This document shows positions 11,536 through 19,224 of a stretch of DNA of 31,362 nucleotides, one piece after another. The stretch spans positions 1 through 31,362 of the IMG/VR virus record IMGVR_UViG_3300032304_000299; one strand, written 5' to 3'. Each line of letters begins with the position of its first letter. The first letter of the stretch is position 1. The DNA comes from a virus. A program made the translations under genes and the position numbers. The notes beneath the pieces were generated by a model. That model was not told where the DNA came from. It worked only from the letters and a program-made list of their open reading frames with translations, and did not search any database.

Positions 11536-11945
11536 GCCTTGACGATCACCCGCTTGATTTCCCTAAACTCCAATGGCGCACCGTCAGCACCAGTGACCTC
11601 ATGTTTCTGGGTCTCAGCCCATCGCATCTGGGTTTTGCTCCACCAGATCGCCGCCGTGGTATCGCCTGCCATGACTTTCTGGAATAGGGTTTTCCCAACT
11701 TGGCCGTTTGCCTTGGCTTTGCCTGACACCAGCTCGGTGGCAAAGTGGGTGCGGAGCGTGTCAACGTGAATCCCATCGCGCACCAGGACTGCGATTTGCT
11801 CGATTGGCAGGCCGTAGCCACTGAGGGCCTCCACTTGTTTGCGCTCGGAGTCAGTTGGCTCAAAGGCTGGTCGGCCAGCGCCTGGTCGAGCTCCACCATT
11901 AGGTCCGCGCTTTTTAAGCGTAGGTTTTTCAGTTTTCGTTGCCAC
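11532..11945 (-). CDS. terS: Terminase small subunit (probable)
   Basis: I choose the GTG at 11945 because GGAGG lies six bases upstream; an alternative TTG at 11960 has no ribosome binding site. The 137-residue product has an AT-hook-like start (KKRGPNGGARPGAGRP), then a helix-turn-helix-like part (about residues 40-75), an oligomerising region and a C-terminal tail. Similar proteins precede terL in many phages and recognise pac/cos DNA. It overlaps the methyltransferase gene by 17 bp and terL by 4 bp. Confidence 0.82.
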   Translation of the reverse strand: MATKTEKPTLKKRGPNGGARPGAGRPAFEPTDSERKQVEALSGYGLPIEQIAVLVRDGIHVDTLRTHFATELVSGKAKANGQVGKTLFQKVMAGDTTAAIWWSKTQMRWAETQKHEVTGADGAPLEFREIKRVIVKA

Positions 11946-13203
11946 TTTTAACCTCCGCAAAAGGAATTCCCGATTCTGCGTGGGTTGCTGCCTTGCCAGT
12001 GTACTCCTGCCAGCGCTTTACTATCACGTCGCAATACTTCGGGTCAAGCTCCATCATTCGGCATTGACGCGCCGTTTTCTCGCACGCGATCAACGTGGTT
12101 CCGGTCCCGCCAAAAGCGTCACCAACAATCGCGTTTGTCTTTGTGAACGATTGGATCGCCCATTCCGGGAAGTCAACAGGAAACGTCGCAGCGTGGACCG
12201 AAGAAAATTCGTTTTTCTTGTTGCCAGAACCGCTGTATACGTTTTTCACGTTCCCATGAAAGTTAGAACATGGAATTGCTTTTGTAGGATTTTCTGTTTG
12301 GGATAGAAAAACAATATATTCAAAACAAGAATTCATCACGTTCTTCGCCATTTGTGGCGCAGCGTGACCCTTGTCCCAGATTGCTACATCAATCAAACTG
12401 TCTTTGTAATGATACAACCATTCAATGAATGCGATTTTGTTTCCAGCTAATTGCTGAATGTTGACAGCCAGACATTTAGCCTTCCATTTCCAGGCGTTTG
12501 TGAACGAACACAAAAAATTCAGATATTCACTTTGAGGTTTGTTGTCCTGGTAAGTAGCATATTTGTTGTCTGTTGTATGCGTGTTGCCAGACAATTTCTC
12601 AGAATCTCCGGCGTTGTATGGAGGTGACGTAAAAACAAAATCAACATCCTTGTCGCCAACCAGCTTCTCAACCGCGTCAATCGACGTAGAATCGCCGCAC
12701 ATCAGCCGGTGCTTGCCTAATATCCAAACGTCGCCCAGTCGCGTTGTAGGCTCTTCTGGAGCCTCTGGCACGTCATCCTCGTCGGTCAGTCCGTCCGTGC
12801 CTTCGGTGACGTTTAAGAGCGCGTCCAGCTCCTCGGTTGTAAAGCCGGCAATCGTCGCATCAAAACCCATCTCTTGCAGATCGTCAAGCTCGAGCCGCAA
12901 CATCTCATCGTCCCATCCGGCATTTGATGCGAGCTTATTGTCGGCAATAACCAGCGCTTTCTTTTGCGCTTCAGACAAGTGGTCCAGCACGATGACTGGG
13001 ATCTCAGACAGCCCGAGCTTGCGAGCTGCCGCTAAACGACCGTGACCAGCGATGATGCCGTTCTTTCCATCGACCAGAATCGGGTTGGTCCAACCAAACT
13101 CTCGAACGCTGGCAGCGATTTGAGCGACTTGCTCATCACTGTGCGTCCGAGAGTTGTTGACATACGGGATCAGCGATTCGATCTTGCGCTGCTCGACTTG
13201 CAT
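11929..13203 (-). CDS. ParB-like domain fused to a DNA (N4/N6) methyltransferase
   Basis: The 424-residue protein has a ParB/Srx-like N-terminal domain (residues 1-90) with the GHGRLAAARKLG motif at 53-64, an acidic linker at 135-155, and a methyltransferase domain with TSPPYN (192-197, catalytic motif IV) before FGGTGTT (364-370, S-adenosylmethionine binding). This motif order is that of beta-class amino-methyltransferases. Such fusions are common in phages and protect phage DNA from restriction; some modify packaging or regulatory sites. AAAGGA precedes the ATG. No cognate endonuclease gene is nearby, so it is an orphan enzyme. Confidence 0.9.
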   Translation of the reverse strand: MQVEQRKIESLIPYVNNSRTHSDEQVAQIAASVREFGWTNPILVDGKNGIIAGHGRLAAARKLGLSEIPVIVLDHLSEAQKKALVIADNKLASNAGWDDEMLRLELDDLQEMGFDATIAGFTTEELDALLNVTEGTDGLTDEDDVPEAPEEPTTRLGDVWILGKHRLMCGDSTSIDAVEKLVGDKDVDFVFTSPPYNAGDSEKLSGNTHTTDNKYATYQDNKPQSEYLNFLCSFTNAWKWKAKCLAVNIQQLAGNKIAFIEWLYHYKDSLIDVAIWDKGHAAPQMAKNVMNSCFEYIVFLSQTENPTKAIPCSNFHGNVKNVYSGSGNKKNEFSSVHAATFPVDFPEWAIQSFTKTNAIVGDAFGGTGTTLIACEKTARQCRMMELDPKYCDVIVKRWQEYTGKAATHAESGIPFAEVKSGNEN

Positions 13204-13519: not shown

Positions 13520-13882
13520 TTACTTGAGAAATTTAAGTTTGAAAAGGGTTGAATCAATGAGCTGCGCGATCTCATCAATGAGATTCTGGATTTCGGTCTC
13601 GTCGGGCATGATTTCGCGTGAGTCTTGCACAAAGTACTTGATGCCTACCATGTACTCGACAGGATCATCGGCTGGAAGGTAATAGTCGTCTGGGAAGCCG
13701 GTGAATTGCCCGTGCCTGGCCATGTAGACTTCTGCGAGCCGGTCTACTAATTTCGGAATGGATTGGTAATACTCACCAAGCGCTTGGTGCTCGGAATAGC
13801 TGTTGGTGGTCCAACGCAGCAGATGCGCGTTTGTGCCTGAGTGCAGAAGCACCGAGACAAAAGTGCTGGCTTCATTTTCCAT
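13520..13882 (-). CDS. Ferritin/Dps-like small phage protein
   Basis: Starting at the ATG at 13882 (GGTGG upstream), the product has 120 residues. The SYSEHQALGEYYQSIPKLVD segment (residues 27-46), with spaced His, Glu and Tyr, and a following helix LAEVYMARHG resemble the four-helix ferritin-like family found in many phages (DUF5856-like; name from memory). A GTG at 13963 would extend the frame, but the added DNA contains an intrinsic terminator, so the shorter form is favoured. Dps relatives bind iron and sometimes DNA; whether this one does is not shown by sequence. Confidence 0.8.
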   Translation of the reverse strand: MENEASTFVSVLLHSGTNAHLLRWTTNSYSEHQALGEYYQSIPKLVDRLAEVYMARHGQFTGFPDDYYLPADDPVEYMVGIKYFVQDSREIMPDETEIQNLIDEIAQLIDSTLFKLKFLK

Positions 13883-13893
13883 GTGCACCACCA

Positions 13894-13920
13894 AAAAAAA
13901 GGGCAACACTCTGTCGCCCA
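13894..13920 (-). terminator. Intrinsic terminator between early leftward genes and the next block
   Basis: On the minus strand GGGCGAC (13920-13914), loop AGAGT, GTTGCCC (13908-13902) makes a seven-pair stem including one G-U, followed directly by eight T (13901-13894). It lies 40 bp after the DUF3310 stop. The T-tract ends only four bases before the GGTGG that serves the ferritin-like gene, so terminator and ribosome binding site are adjacent. Late genes would need read-through or antitermination, because no promoter fits in the remaining space. Confidence 0.8.
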
Positions 13921-13959
13921 ATCGGGCAATGGTTTGGCTAGGAGTGCGCCTGTTCCCGA

Positions 13960-14202
13960 TCACCCGCGTTTTAGCACGTCTTGCAGATGTACGTCAAACG
14001 CTCTCTTGCGCCGCTCAATCTCCCGATCCAGATACCAGCGTGCTTTCTCGAGGTCCTGCATTCCGGCCTTAAGATCTGCTCGCCAGATGTATTTCATCGC
14101 GTTGCCCAGATTGAAACTCATGTGCTCTGTGATCTGGATGCACTCGACGCCACTTGGGTGTTGGGTGTAGTGCTGTGGGTGGTGTACTGGATCATGTTTC
14201 AT
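13960..14202 (-). CDS. DUF3310 family protein
   Basis: This 80-residue protein carries the DUF3310 signature: HHPQHYTQHPSGVECIQITE, then NLGNAMKYIWRADLKAGMQD and LEKARWYLDREI. Members are common in phage early regions; some are labelled nucleotide kinase-like, but no activity is proven. The ATG at 14202 overlaps the previous stop (ATGA), which makes it the better start than an upstream codon within the neighbour. It is the last gene before the 13.9-kb terminator. Confidence 0.9.
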   Translation of the reverse strand: MKHDPVHHPQHYTQHPSGVECIQITEHMSFNLGNAMKYIWRADLKAGMQDLEKARWYLDREIERRKRAFDVHLQDVLKRG

Positions 14203-14606
14203 GATAGGACGCTCGTAGAGTATTCGCCGCACCAGTGGCCATCGTCAACGGGTGGCCAGCCAGGTGATTGGTTGCCGTTCTCGTCTACCAGTAGCTCTGG
14301 TGATCGGCGTCGACATTCACCCATCCAGTTCTGCGACCCATCTCCTCCAAGAAGATGGAAATATCGACAGGTTCCGCAATCAGGTCGCATAACCACTCCT
14401 CCATAAACAAGTCGGACGTCTGTTCGTCTATCACTGGTTTCATATTGTGCCTCGTATTGATCTATCAAAACGGTAGCGTCGGTCTGAATTTGCTTTGCAA
14501 GACTGACCACGCAATCTAACTCGACTTTGAACCCTGCGCATTGCTTTTGCAACTCGCTTGTATTCAATTGAATATTGGTGATTGATTCACTTACTTGATA
14601 ACTCAT
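14199..14606 (-). CDS. Hypothetical protein with C-terminal cysteine motif
   Basis: The 135-residue protein has a helical N-terminal half (residues 1-62) and a C-terminal part with CGTCRYFHLLG, GECRRRSPE and PPVDDGHWCGEY. This CxxCxYF...GxCRR...WCGE pattern recurs in small phage proteins and is likely to bind a metal. The start overlaps the previous stop (ATGA). The short C-terminal module may be an independent domain added to a coiled-coil stem. No function is known. Confidence 0.8.
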   Translation of the reverse strand: MSYQVSESITNIQLNTSELQKQCAGFKVELDCVVSLAKQIQTDATVLIDQYEAQYETSDRRTDVRLVYGGVVMRPDCGTCRYFHLLGGDGSQNWMGECRRRSPELLVDENGNQSPGWPPVDDGHWCGEYSTSVLS

Positions 14607-14896
14607 GCGATAAGAGCCTTTTTCAATTGTGATTCCTTCATGTTAAAAATATCCTCAGAACCGAAGATTTTCTCAATCCACGGTCTGACCCATAAATAAG
14701 TCGTCCCGATCTTAGCGTTTCGCTCGATCAGATTCTTGGTCGTCAGTTTGCCATTGTTAAACGTCACCCATAAATGTGGCGTCACGTAATGCGGCACGTA
14801 CATTGCATCGCCCAGAAAGAACACTGGCTGGACGTCAGGATGGAGCTGCTCATTATCCTCGCCTTTGTAGACGAACCTTCCATTAGTAAATTCCAT
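14603..14896 (-). CDS. Hypothetical early protein
   Basis: I take the ATG at 14896, preceded by GGAGAG, which gives 97 residues beginning MEFTNGRFVYKGED; an upstream TTG lies inside the neighbour and lacks a ribosome binding site. The product is aromatic-rich (FFLGDAMYVPHYVTPHLWVTF) with a basic C-terminal helix. It overlaps the previous gene by 14 bp and the next by 4 bp. I recognise no family. Confidence 0.75.
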   Translation of the reverse strand: MEFTNGRFVYKGEDNEQLHPDVQPVFFLGDAMYVPHYVTPHLWVTFNNGKLTTKNLIERNAKIGTTYLWVRPWIEKIFGSEDIFNMKESQLKKALIA

Positions 14897-15173
14897 CAAC
14901 GCTCTCCACGGGTTTTCCAAGGGTTCTGAGAACTACACAATATTCTGGCTCAAGACTGCTTGCACGACCATTGACATCGAAATAAACGTAGCGCTTACGC
15001 CTAGCGCTATCAGTCTCATCAAGCCGACGCCCAAGTCTCCCAACCCGGAAGCCCTGACGCAGCTTTGCATCAATGACCTTACTCGTTAATTCAGGGAAGT
15101 ACTCAGCACATTCTTTTGACGTCATTGATCCATGATTGGCAATGATTTGTAGCGGATCTATTTTAATTTCCAT
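14883..15173 (-). CDS. Putative HTH-type small protein
   Basis: The 96-residue product begins MEIKIDPLQIIANHGSMTSK with AAGGAG before the ATG. The stretch SMTSKECAEYFPELTSKVIDAKL (residues 16-38) has the helix-turn-helix spacing of winged-helix proteins, and KRYVYFDV could be the wing. It may bind DNA and regulate the early leftward genes. It lies 18 bp after the SSB-like gene. Confidence 0.72.
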   Translation of the reverse strand: MEIKIDPLQIIANHGSMTSKECAEYFPELTSKVIDAKLRQGFRVGRLGRRLDETDSARRKRYVYFDVNGRASSLEPEYCVVLRTLGKPVESVDGIY

Positions 15174-15191: not shown

Positions 15192-15563
15192 TCAAAAAGG
15201 CACATCTTCGTCCAGATCATCAAAACCCGATGCGCGGCCCTGTGGCGCGTTTTTGACTCGGGTTGGTAGGGTAGCCTCAGTCACGGCTTGAAAGCCGTTC
15301 CTGTGGCCGTCTGGATGCCTTTTTGGCCCATGATCGACCGCGGTGGTCGGTTCGCAAGCGTTTCCGATGCTGATCGCAGCGTATTGCATCCCGCTGGCAG
15401 CGGTTTTGATCGTCACGTCCAGCCAGTGCATCGCGCCGTCTGGCAAGCAGATCCGGCCCTTGTAATCGGCGTGCCAATCCTCGACCTTTTTGTCATTCGG
15501 GAATGCAGCGCCTTTGCCAGGCTTTTGCTCGTATGTCCCTTTGGCTGCGGTTGGTTTATTCAT
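15192..15563 (-). CDS. Putative single-stranded DNA-binding protein
   Basis: The ATG at 15563 gives 123 residues (a GTG three codons upstream is possible). The start is NKPTAAKGTYEQKPGKGAAF, then a compact beta-rich region with WHADYKGRICLPDGAMHWLDVTI and MQYAAISIG, then a polar linker and the acidic end FDDLDEDVPF. That tip closely imitates the DDDIPF tail of bacterial SSB, which recruits repair and replication proteins. The body is short for an OB fold and I cannot confirm one. Its location beside exonuclease, annealing and resolvase genes fits an SSB role. Confidence 0.7.
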   Translation of the reverse strand: MNKPTAAKGTYEQKPGKGAAFPNDKKVEDWHADYKGRICLPDGAMHWLDVTIKTAASGMQYAAISIGNACEPTTAVDHGPKRHPDGHRNGFQAVTEATLPTRVKNAPQGRASGFDDLDEDVPF

Positions 15564-15683
15564 TTGATTCACTTTAAATTGTTTCTCAAGATTTAAGTTT
15601 ATTAACCGGGTTGCTGTTTATTTGTGCACCTTTTATTTTTTTTCAAACCTCCTCTTATTTATTTAGTAAAATTAAATAAAGAA

Positions 15684-15771
15684 TCTTAGATCTTAGTCTT
15701 AGCTCCTAGTCTCAGATCTTAGTCTTAGCTCTCTTAGTCTTAGATCTTAGTCTTAGATCTTAGTCTTAGAT
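15684..15771. repeat. CTTAG tandem array (13-bp basic unit)
   Basis: TTAG recurs at 15686, 15693, 15699, 15719, 15725, 15734, 15740, 15747, 15753, 15760 and 15766, with spacings mainly alternating between 6 and 7 bp, so the unit is CTTAGATCTTAGT. Degenerate copies (CCTAG, CTCAG) lie at 15705-15715. Several units contain GATC. The array directly adjoins a GC-rich patch and the DnaA boxes, and AT-rich DNA lies on its other side. Confidence 0.85.
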
Positions 15772-15800
15772 CTCTACGCGCACGCGTATATGAAGAAAAG

Positions 15801-15866
15801 TTATCCACAGGGTTATCCACAAGGTTATCCACAGATTCTAGGGTAGTTATCCACAAGTTATCCACA
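15801..15866 (+). promoter_or_regulatory. Cluster of five DnaA boxes
   Basis: Five exact TTATCCACA sites are present at 15801-15809, 15813-15821, 15825-15833, 15847-15855 and 15858-15866, all on the plus strand. The first three are on a 12-bp pitch with GGG, AGG-type spacers; the last two are on an 11-bp pitch. Such same-face packing favours cooperative DnaA filament formation. Chance occurrence of five exact 9-mers in 66 bp is negligible. Confidence 0.92.
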
Positions 15867-15868
15867 GG

Positions 15869-16036
15869 CTAGTCTTCCGTGCTTTTTAGCGATTTTTCGT
15901 ATTCTTTTTTGATTTCTTTTACGATCTCCTTTTCAGCTTTTGTATAATCTCGCAAGGGTTTGCCATTCAAATCTAACCCTCTGTAGGGCATCCGTTCGAG
16001 CCGTCTTTTGGCCTCAATGTTTGCCTTTTTGCTCAT
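15869..16036 (-). CDS. Small charged hypothetical protein
   Basis: A 55-residue frame starts at the ATG at 16036, overlapping the RusA stop by four bases (ATGA), and ends in TAG at 15869, only three bases from the last DnaA box. It begins MSKKANIEAKRRLERMPYRG, contains a LNGKPLRDYTKAEKE segment and ends KSLKSTED; about half of its residues are charged. The tight coupling with RusA supports it as a real gene. Function is unknown. Confidence 0.7.
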   Translation of the reverse strand: MSKKANIEAKRRLERMPYRGLDLNGKPLRDYTKAEKEIVKEIKKEYEKSLKSTED

Positions 16037-16470
16037 CGAATGTTTTCCGACAGCCAGACTGTAACGCTGCCCTCCTCAGCATACTTCTTGGTGACTTTCA
16101 GGAATGTGACCTGGGCATCGTCCTCGTAGACCACGCCATTCATCCCGTCCAGCACCGTCTTAGCAACGTTGTCGACATCTGGCCTGGCAGGGTAAATATC
16201 GCCACATAACGCTGCCCGGCGCTTTGCCTTGGACCATGACAGGGGAATGCTCATGGATGCGTAGATGCAGACCGTGAGCTGCGTCTGTAACGGTGCATTA
16301 CCTTGCATTGCCTCTGCTGCTCGAGCTGCGATGAGTGACTCATATTCTCGAGTGACAGCCGGCGTGTAGCTGCGGGGCTTGCCGCCAGCGGTGGAGAACC
16401 GTGGCCGGCCCTTGCCAACTGGTGGTCCAGGGATAACGAACTGAAGAGTCATCATTTCAATAGATTCCAT
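16033..16470 (-). CDS. rusA: RusA-type Holliday junction resolvase
   Basis: This protein shows the RusA family motifs: GKGRPRF near residues 19-25, RPDVDN at 96-101 and DGMNGVVYEDDAQV at 108-121, including the Asp residues that bind the catalytic metal. I choose the ATG at 16470 (145 residues) because GGAAA lies seven bases upstream; a start at 16497 is possible. RusA cuts four-way junctions symmetrically and in a phage resolves recombination or branched replication DNA before packaging. It is the first gene of the leftward operon. Confidence 0.92.
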   Translation of the reverse strand: MESIEMMTLQFVIPGPPVGKGRPRFSTAGGKPRSYTPAVTREYESLIAARAAEAMQGNAPLQTQLTVCIYASMSIPLSWSKAKRRAALCGDIYPARPDVDNVAKTVLDGMNGVVYEDDAQVTFLKVTKKYAEEGSVTVWLSENIR

Positions 16471-16599
16471 GCTGTTTCCCGATCGGGTTCCTTCCACGCC
16501 AACGTCTCGTCCGGCTGCTGAAATGTCCCGACAGGGAAACTCTTGAGAACGAACGGCAGATCATGCCCGAAGTCGATGAGCTTGTGGAGAAAATTTGTA

Positions 16600-17195: not shown

Positions 17196-17295
17196 AGACA
17201 AACAAGATTCCAATCTGACAATTCTGCTGGCGTCGATTGCCGTCGGCGCAATGTCTGCAATCTGCTTATTTCTTGCTCTCTCTGGAGGTCTGTGA
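17185..17295 (+). CDS. Tiny single-pass membrane protein, 36 residues
   Basis: An ATG at 17185, with AGGAGCC upstream, opens a 36-codon frame ending TGA at 17295. The first ten residues are charged (MRPEDKQDSN) and the remainder is one hydrophobic helix (LTILLASIAVGAMSAICLFL). This predicts a membrane peptide with its N-terminus probably cytoplasmic or periplasmic by charge only weakly. Its stop overlaps the start of the exonuclease gene (TGATG). It could affect the host membrane early in infection; that is inference. Confidence 0.62.
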   Translation: MRPEDKQDSNLTILLASIAVGAMSAICLFLALSGGL

Positions 17296-18251
17296 TGGTC
17301 GGCAAGGTAACCCCCAACACGATGCTGTCTGCATCCCGTATCCCGGCCCTTCTTGGGCATTCAAAGTATGAGACGCCTAACGATGTACTCAAGAGCGTAA
17401 TAAACGCGCTACAGGACGTTGAAGAGCCGTTCAAAGAGAACGAGGCAATGCACTGGGGCAATCTGTTGGAAGTGCCTCTGCTGCTCGAGGCAAGCGCACG
17501 CCTGGGTCTGTCGCATTTAAAGCTCGACCATCCAAAGCCCTACTTTCATCCTGATGCGCCAATCGCCTGTTCGTTAGACGGAGACGGCAACGGCAACGGT
17601 TTGGTTGTGACCAACAACCCGGAAGCCGGCGTTTATGTTATTGGCCAGGACAGCATCACGCTCGACGGTTTTGGCGTGCTCGAGGCTAAGCTGACCAGTT
17701 CATATCCCGAAGATTGTCCGGCAATGAGTCGGGGACCGCTCCAGCTCCAGGCTCAAATGGATATTTATGGCGCCAAATGGGGAGCCGTCTGTGTCTTATA
17801 TCAAGGCATTGAGCTGCGCATCTTTCTGTTTGCGCCTCACGAGGAGACCCAAGCGCTTATTCGCAAGAAAGCGTTCGAGTTTGAGTCCAAGCTGACGCAC
17901 TGGTCAGAGACTGGTGAGGTCGAATGGTACGACCCTGCTAATCCCGAGGAATTTGGCTTTAAGTGGCCAGGCGATCCGAACATAGATTCGGTTGATCTTG
18001 GTGAATGGGGAGCCACGCTGGCCGAGCGGATCGTCAAAGCCAAACAAGAAATTAAAGTGCTCGAGGCAAGCATTGATGAATGCGAAGCCGAGCTGAAGGA
18101 AATGCTTGGCAACGCCACTCTGGCGCACGCTGAAGAGTTTCGCATCTCCTGGCCAATCCGGAATTACCAGGCACAACCTGAGAAAGTCGTACCCGCCAAG
18201 CCAGCACATTCGATGCGCCAGTCAACCGTCACCATCAAGGGGCCAAAATGA
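17295..18251 (+). CDS. YqaJ-type viral recombinase (5'-3' exonuclease)
   Basis: The 318-residue protein has the PD-(D/E)xK nuclease pattern of the YqaJ/lambda-exonuclease family: an SASRIPALLG start, WGNLLE at 54-59, LDG with Asp95, LEAK at 129-132 as the catalytic E-x-K, and LQAQMD with Gln152/154. The enzyme degrades the 5' strand of duplex ends to give a 3' overhang for the annealing protein encoded next. GGAGG precedes the ATG at 17295; a GTG one codon upstream is less likely. The C-terminal 100 residues contain a long helix and are family-variable. Confidence 0.92.
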   Translation: MVGKVTPNTMLSASRIPALLGHSKYETPNDVLKSVINALQDVEEPFKENEAMHWGNLLEVPLLLEASARLGLSHLKLDHPKPYFHPDAPIACSLDGDGNGNGLVVTNNPEAGVYVIGQDSITLDGFGVLEAKLTSSYPEDCPAMSRGPLQLQAQMDIYGAKWGAVCVLYQGIELRIFLFAPHEETQALIRKKAFEFESKLTHWSETGEVEWYDPANPEEFGFKWPGDPNIDSVDLGEWGATLAERIVKAKQEIKVLEASIDECEAELKEMLGNATLAHAEEFRISWPIRNYQAQPEKVVPAKPAHSMRQSTVTIKGPK

Positions 18252-19009
18252 AAATCGCAGCAGCATTTGTCGCAGCCAAACGTGCCTTTGCACCAGCTCT
18301 CAAGACCAGCACAAACCCGCATTTTCGCAACCGATATGTCGATCTGGCTGGTTGCTTGGAAGCAGTCAATGACGCTCTGCTTGAGAACGGCATCGCCGTT
18401 TACCAAGAGACGTTTGAGGTTCCTGATGGCGTCTGCGTGGAGACCTGCTTTCTTCATGAATCCGGCGAGACTCTACGGATGGGCAAGCTGCACGTGCCAG
18501 CAGCAAAGCACGACCCGCAAGGGTATGGATCTGCCCTTACTTACGCACGGCGATACTCTTTGATGGCTGCGTGCGGTATTGCCGCCGAGGATGATGACGG
18601 CAACGCTGCCAGCAAGAGGCCGCCTCAGAAGCCCGAGGTGAAGCCATCAAATCCCTTGGATGCGGTAGCTCCTAAAGCGCTGCCGAAGCCCTCTGAGCCG
18701 CCGCCAGAAGTGATTGAGTTTGAGGATGGAGCTGGTGGCACCTGGGCATTGCGCGTCCCCAACGAAGCCAAGCCACGCTCGATGAGCAGTGACGAGGCTG
18801 CATGGGTTGTTGAGTTCAATGCGCTGGCCGATGCAGTCATGAAAGCCGGAAAAGTACCGCCTGCGGATCGGATCTCTAAGCTCAAGCTCCTGCGTACTGC
18901 TAATGACGCTGAAGTGAACCGGCTGTCGATGGTAGATCGTGCCAGGTTTCTTCAGACCTTCTCAGCACGGATCGGCGCACTTGACGCGCTGATGAAAGCA
19001 GCGGCATGA
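18248..19009 (+). CDS. ERF-family single-strand annealing protein
   Basis: The 253-residue product has the full ERF core at residues 1-122: TNPHFRNRYVDLAG, a ALLENGIAVYQ segment, HESGETLRMG, YGSALTYARRYSLMAACGI and AEDDDGNA. Residues 125-175 form a Pro/Lys-rich linker and the C-terminus is a helical domain. ERF proteins, first known from P22, anneal complementary single strands; with the exonuclease this makes a complete two-component recombination system. It also can circularise headful-packaged, terminally redundant DNA. The ATG overlaps the exonuclease stop by four bases. Confidence 0.92.
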   Translation: MKIAAAFVAAKRAFAPALKTSTNPHFRNRYVDLAGCLEAVNDALLENGIAVYQETFEVPDGVCVETCFLHESGETLRMGKLHVPAAKHDPQGYGSALTYARRYSLMAACGIAAEDDDGNAASKRPPQKPEVKPSNPLDAVAPKALPKPSEPPPEVIEFEDGAGGTWALRVPNEAKPRSMSSDEAAWVVEFNALADAVMKAGKVPPADRISKLKLLRTANDAEVNRLSMVDRARFLQTFSARIGALDALMKAAA

Positions 19010-19224
19010 GAATGGCTCAGATCCGATTACTGGACGCAATCGGTGGGCTTGAGAAAGACTTGGGCCGGTTGCCGTCTATGAATGAAATCGCCAGGGTTCT
19101 GGGTTGCAGCCCCCAGAACGTTCACAAGATGATCAAACGAATGAGGAGCAAGAATGAAACAGTGTCCACCCTGCCACGGGAATTGCAATCAGGGCCGAAA
19201 TTGTCCAAACAGGAGCAAAAATGA
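19006..19224 (+). CDS. LexA-like helix-turn-helix protein
   Basis: This 72-residue protein has an N-terminal winged-helix/HTH like the LexA DNA-binding domain: LLDAIGGLEKDLGRLPSMNEIARVLGCSP, then QNVHKMIKRMRSK, where SMNEIARVLG and QNVHKMIKRM are helices two and three. No catalytic peptidase part is attached. It is the only clear DNA-binding candidate in the rightward operon, so it may control the divergent promoters. The ATG overlaps the ERF stop; a second ATG lies two codons later. Confidence 0.82.
   Translation: MRMAQIRLLDAIGGLEKDLGRLPSMNEIARVLGCSPQNVHKMIKRMRSKNETVSTLPRELQSGPKLSKQEQK

Follow-up and report, generated by a model that had tools for sequence, protein, structure and literature searches.

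The general view is that a double-stranded DNA phage supplies the protein that recognises its origin, and such a protein frees the phage from the once-per-cycle control exerted through host DnaA. How, then, does replication begin in a phage whose largest non-coding space holds a cluster of DnaA boxes and whose genes include no recognisable initiator? The window, meaning the whole stretch of DNA that was analysed (31,362 bases; IMG/VR record IMGVR_UViG_3300032304_000299), is a complete genome, since its first and last 123 bases match exactly as a direct terminal repeat. The best reading of its sequence is that a host-DnaA-dependent origin has replaced the phage's own initiator.

The gap and its DnaA boxes

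The features of the gap are as follows.

15573..15868, no strand: whole origin-like gap, 296 bp, the largest non-coding space of the genome
15628..15777, no strand: least stable 150 bp of the genome in a duplex stability scan, a candidate DNA-unwinding element
15686..15775, plus: 13-mer repeat array of the GATCTTAGTCTTA type, with AGATCT at 15688, 15714, 15742, 15755 and 15768
15775..15789, no strand: GC-rich patch CTACGCGCACGCGTA that separates the repeats from the boxes; every relative has a GC/CG-rich patch here
15801..15809, plus: DnaA box 1, TTATCCACA, exact and kept in relatives
15813..15821, plus: DnaA box 2, TTATCCACA, which is TTGTCCACA or TTATTCACA in some relatives
15825..15833, plus: DnaA box 3, TTATCCACA, exact
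15847..15855, plus: DnaA box 4, TTATCCACA, exact
15858..15866, plus: DnaA box 5, TTATCCACA, exact

The sequence-only reading had described five exact boxes in one orientation within a 66-bp block of the largest non-coding space, beside a GC patch and AT-rich DNA, and each of these elements was recovered. The boxes stand head-to-tail on the plus strand (15801-15866) with start-to-start spacings of 12-12-22-11 bp, next to the GC patch at 15775-15789 and the AT-rich DNA at 15630-15683. By chance 0.26 exact copies would be expected in the window versus the five observed, a number reached in 0 of 100 dinucleotide shuffles, and no further exact TTATCCACA occurs on either strand elsewhere in the 31,362 bases. 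The boxes are clustered rather than scattered, because one-mismatch copies in the rest of the genome stay at chance level. Fourfold-site GC skew shows no switch at the gap, a result that says nothing either way, given that almost every gene is on the same strand.

Comparison with relatives, a check proposed in the same reading, upholds the cluster. Among 58 loci collected with the SSB gene as query, the five box positions are kept in all 31 close relatives that reach the gap. With the window included these give 160 boxes, of which 137 are TTATCCACA, 15 TTGTCCACA, 7 TTATTCACA and one TTGTTCACA. Mean pairwise difference is 0.026 in the boxes, 0.115 in the spacers between them, 0.218 at fourfold sites of the SSB gene and 0.38 in the columns just after the boxes, which places box divergence 8-fold below that of the fourfold sites. 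Spacing is nearly fixed across 37 distinct arrays (12-12-22-11, 11-12-22-11 or 12-12-21-12), and the change from 22 to 21 is paired with one from 11 to 12 in all six arrays that have it, so that box 3 to box 5 stays 33 bp. The conserved number and phasing of boxes that characterise an oriC-like origin are found both in the close relatives and in the 37 arrays; of the further loci, L352 has one box fewer and L318 is cut by the contig end. The genes from SSB to lysozyme are about 42-100% identical among the relatives, and virion genes are sometimes absent or only 25-30% alike; the putative origin travels with the early gene module.

The repeats next to the boxes had been called a TAG-rich array. 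Repeats are indeed present, but the unit is a 13-mer, GATCTTAGTCTTA, that carries AGATCT and is spaced at 13, 13, 28, 13 and 13, and a plain TAG repeat was not borne out. Five AGATCT lie in an 81-bp span of the array versus 9 in the whole genome. The repeat stands in the reverse-complement sense (CTAAGACTAAG) in 7 of the 37 distinct arrays; conservation therefore extends to the palindromic AGATCT but not to TAG on one particular strand, and no fixed strand is favoured. In L002, L006, L009, L010, L029 and L034 several 13-mers are reverse-complemented together, as if a segment between AGATCT palindromes had been inverted. The candidate unwinding element (15628-15777) averages -1.131 kcal/mol per step versus a genome mean of -1.446 (sd 0.066), a departure of 4.8 sd, and the same gap is the least stable segment in the genomes of five relatives as well (G001-G005; six genomes in all).

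The order of boxes, GC-rich spacer and TAG-containing repeats resembles the basal unwinding system of the B. subtilis type, which calls for three or more NAN trios in a row, no farther than 16 bp from a DnaA box (PMC8287927). Judged by eye, the array differs on each count: its period is 13 and not 3, its TAGs lie 6-7 bp apart with the nearest about 30 bp from box 1, and the inversion in 7 of 37 arrays argues against strand-specific trios. The DnaA-trio reading was rejected on period, distance and strand.

The boxes could also be imagined as a DnaA-controlled promoter of the downstream SSB operon, given that the gap lies within a row of minus-strand genes and that a weak -35/-10 match overlaps boxes 3-5. 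However, promoter matches occur at shuffle level (3 found versus 2.7 expected), the supposed -10 falls in an inter-box segment that varies among relatives, and both the 13-mers and the weakness of the duplex are left unexplained, which makes this explanation scarcely credible.

Gene content and the initiator of box-less relatives

The genes that matter to the argument surround the gap.

14883..15173, minus: small winged-helix DNA-binding protein (predicted), 96 aa, box clade only; possible helper or regulator
15192..15572, minus: SSB-like protein (phrog_18154)
15569..15646, minus: dead remnant of a 67-aa ORF that is intact in most relatives, between array and SSB gene
15869..16036, minus: 55-aa protein with no assigned function, conserved only in the box clade, with a stop codon that directly adjoins box 5
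16033..16497, minus: RusA Holliday-junction resolvase (PF05866)
17292..18251, plus: RecE/YqaJ-like exonuclease (phrog_434, PF09588)
18248..19009, plus: ERF single-strand annealing protein (PF04404)
19006..19224, plus: HTH protein, 72 aa, box clade, with a weak match in G008

Profile matches identify P22-like virion genes (portal PF16510, coat PF11651, tail factor PF11650, stabilisation protein and gp7), and Pfam and PHROGs place an SSB-like protein, RusA, a RecE/YqaJ-type exonuclease and an ERF annealase in the early region. The claim that the phage has no recognisable polymerase, helicase, primase or helicase loader stands: none of these, and no initiator, was recognised by Pfam and/or PHROGs among the window proteins scanned, a set that covers all but a few small ORFs of the virion/lysis region. 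DnaB_C was absent from a six-frame search of the window and five near-full-length relatives. An initiator or helicase among the remaining genes would have counted against a start by host DnaA, and profile searches of those genes turned up neither. No RNA or tRNA gene was found in the window. The 67-aa ORF beside the array was considered as an initiator and ruled out, as it is dead in the window (a 126-bp deletion and one extra A) and likewise in L013; where intact it has a strong Shine-Dalgarno sequence and a TTG start. Elsewhere in the window, 11929-13203 encodes a ParB-N domain fused to an N6/N4 DNA methyltransferase for which the GATC of the gap is a candidate target, and 13520-13963 a DUF5856 or starvation-inducible-regulator-like protein (phrog_858) kept throughout the box clade.

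Missing replication genes alone prove little, because Methylophilales phage MEP301 has a similar early region that is also without a polymerase (PMC8024684) and yet has no DnaA box array. Its gp55 (L312 34057-34662), annotated as hypothetical, matches the O-like initiators discussed below (33.6% over 113 aa, E 4e-18), whereas the publication describing MEP301 names no initiator.

More informative is what the box-less relatives carry. A DnaB-type helicase was sought as a substitute in box-less relatives defined by the exonuclease and was not found; that search then led to an O-like initiator. Four box-less genomes on complete or long contigs (G013, G014, G016 and G017) encode a winged-helix protein of 234-255 aa of the HTH_36 type, which matches PF13730 HTH_36 and phrog_428/270/391 (replication initiators, O-like proteins). 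Its gene lies between SSB and RusA/exonuclease, the same place as the array in the box clade. The box-less group reads SSB-initiator-RusA-exonuclease-ERF and the box clade SSB-array-RusA-exonuclease-ERF, with RusA detectable in some but not every initiator phage. An HMM of the initiators found no match in six box-clade genomes (G000-G005), even at E = 10. Across 133 loci or genomes, 75 have the array only (37 distinct array sequences), 26 the initiator only, none both and 32 neither; the counts of 75, 26 and 0 are not independent, because many loci are the same contig twice. The 32 are mostly fragments ending before the locus, together with L315 and with phages that have a RepA- or DnaB-like protein.

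The exonuclease alignment retained 80 loci. Relatives at about 69% exonuclease identity or more have the array wherever the contig reaches it, and those at 49-56% lack it. The tree requires a single change between the array and initiator states. The box clade (support 100/98) is nested among initiator phages, the initiator being present both in its sister group and in the groups outside it. Loss of the initiator in the box clade is the likely direction of change, and likely only, because the rooting rests on long outgroup branches. The gap is quite probably a phage replication origin built to be started by host DnaA, standing where close relatives keep an initiator gene.

Comparison with known origins and other phage arrays

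Useful reference points are found in E. coli, where the unwinding element has the 13-mer consensus GATCTnTTnTTTT and the boxes on its side are directed toward it, as R1 is (PMC5742627), and where an AGATCT 6-mer in oriC is bound single-stranded by ATP-DnaA (PMC8235120). When oriC was compared directly with the phage gap, both were seen to have TTATCCACA boxes beside AT-rich 13-mers beginning GATCT, AGATCT 6-mers and many GATC. Unlike oriC, the phage gap has every box oriented as R4, no R1-like box beside the unwinding element and no opposed array, and it is carried by a phage genome. The proposal of a bacterial-style origin is supported: several high-affinity boxes adjoin a segment of low stability. 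Their direction is opposite to that of E. coli R1 and runs counter to the left-half unwinding rule (PMC5742627). Capture of a host oriC was considered and set aside, as the combined 13-mer and box pattern matched no chromosomal contig in the genome contig collection searched. The 13-mer pattern alone occurred in 2 of 399 genomes of the order around Alysiella, and in neither did it resemble the phage repeat.

Iteron plasmid origins (RK2 oriV, P1 oriR, F) likewise combine DnaA boxes with 13-mers in a weak segment, and direct repeats, here the 13-mers, are present in the gap. At P1 oriR and in coliphage 186, DnaA acts alongside a phage initiator. The phage differs from these plasmids in having no Rep gene recognised by Pfam or PHROGs, a small novel Rep being possible, and no separate 17-22-bp iterons. 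Such systems raise an alternative that we regard as unlikely, though worth weighing: DnaA would only assist a phage initiator that profiles fail to recognise, encoded for instance at 14883-15173 or 19006-19224, with the 13-mers as its iterons as in RK2, P1 and F. Several small proteins without assigned function are common to box-clade genomes and absent from initiator phages; the repeats vary jointly in 13-bp units and can be inverted, which might suit double-strand binding sites; and DnaA boxes in plasmids are known to assist a Rep protein (PMC10797057). The product of 14883-15173 is modelled as a winged helix (pLDDT 85-89 in the core), but structure comparison brings up, at best, ordinary winged-helix regulators (E above 0.004), and profile comparison gives no similarity to the O-like family. 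The fold predicted for 14603-14920 is of low confidence (pLDDT 40). At 55-135 aa the candidates also fall far below the length of known Rep or O proteins, and the 17-22 bp usual for iterons weighs against this alternative too. Origins of the lambda O type are likewise close in one respect, in that sister phages carry an O-like initiator at the same position; in G000-G005 that gene is absent and DnaA boxes take its place.

Clusters of DnaA boxes are also found in datA and DARS, in one direction in datA. These loci have no unwinding element and regulate DnaA rather than start replication. An array acting in this manner would titrate DnaA and silence host initiation while phage replication began elsewhere. 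Five high-affinity boxes in many phage copies would be expected to sequester DnaA, and other phages have an array together with replication proteins of their own, for example a replisome organiser in Butyrivibrio phage Bo-Finn and a DNA polymerase and primase/helicase in Vibrio phage BD5. However, titration needs no unwinding element, no fixed phasing and no exclusion of an initiator gene, all three of which are seen here, and it leaves the replication of an initiator-less phage unexplained. As the sole function of the array it is quite improbable; titration may be a side effect.

The earlier view that DnaA capture would be unusual needs dividing. Arrays themselves are not rare in phages, with at least 119 IMG/VR stretches holding three or more exact boxes at a 12-bp period and named isolates among Lactococcus 949-type phages, microviruses and T7-like phages; the unusual part is an array that replaces an encoded initiator. 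In the two named array phages that were examined, Bo-Finn and BD5, arrays may serve other uses because replication proteins are encoded. Several AGATCT beside the boxes were seen only in members of the box-clade family among 115 census loci examined, with L076, L096, L098, L119, L133, L158 and L065 counted as members on the basis of contig names or the same repeat. For a large phage that encodes its polymerase, software-predicted DnaA boxes have been reported (PMC11512268), and no direct precedent for a tailed phage started by DnaA alone was found in the literature outside subscription journals.

The census yielded several further observations. Tandem arrays in L062-L176 lie in contigs of 28-66% GC and are almost always unidirectional, and no survey of such arrays was found. 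Non-coding arrays occur in Lactococcus phages 949, WRP3, LW81, P1048 and AM1-AM12 (115-133 kb), and arrays in the single-stranded DNA microviruses PQ006958, MK496754, KT264787 and KT264804. T7-like enterobacterial phages MK685668, OX335378, OX335441 and KT321314 (positions 1-104) have DnaA-box-like repeats near the genome ends, at up to four places per record. A similar array in a Candidatus Palibaumannia plasmid (L060 3328-3399) adjoins a replication initiator gene.

A proposed start by host DnaA

The simplest account of these comparisons is that the array takes over the job of the missing initiator and would let host DnaA open the phage circle. Host DnaA would bind the five head-to-tail boxes and then oligomerise, melting the neighbouring weak segment of 13-mers and AT-rich DNA. 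The host loader and DnaB helicase could then enter at the opened segment, with host proteins alone and no phage helper taking part, and the host replisome would copy the circle. Phage SSB, exonuclease, annealase and RusA would help convert circles to concatemers for headful packaging. Two features run against so simple a reading, namely the direction of the boxes, which face away from the unwinding element, and the small proteins without assigned function that are specific to the box clade, one of them a predicted winged helix. On balance we lean, by a modest degree, toward a tailed-phage lineage that dropped its O-type initiator and now replicates in the manner of an oriC minichromosome, with host DnaA as the sole starter, a state that would have arisen once by in-place replacement.

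If this is true, dependence on DnaA would tie the phage to host DnaA control or force it to break that control, and would set it in direct competition with the host origin. The family would offer a natural comparison, at one locus, between an initiator gene and DnaA boxes. As a compact natural origin with uniform box direction, the gap could also serve as a test bed for models of DnaA-driven unwinding.
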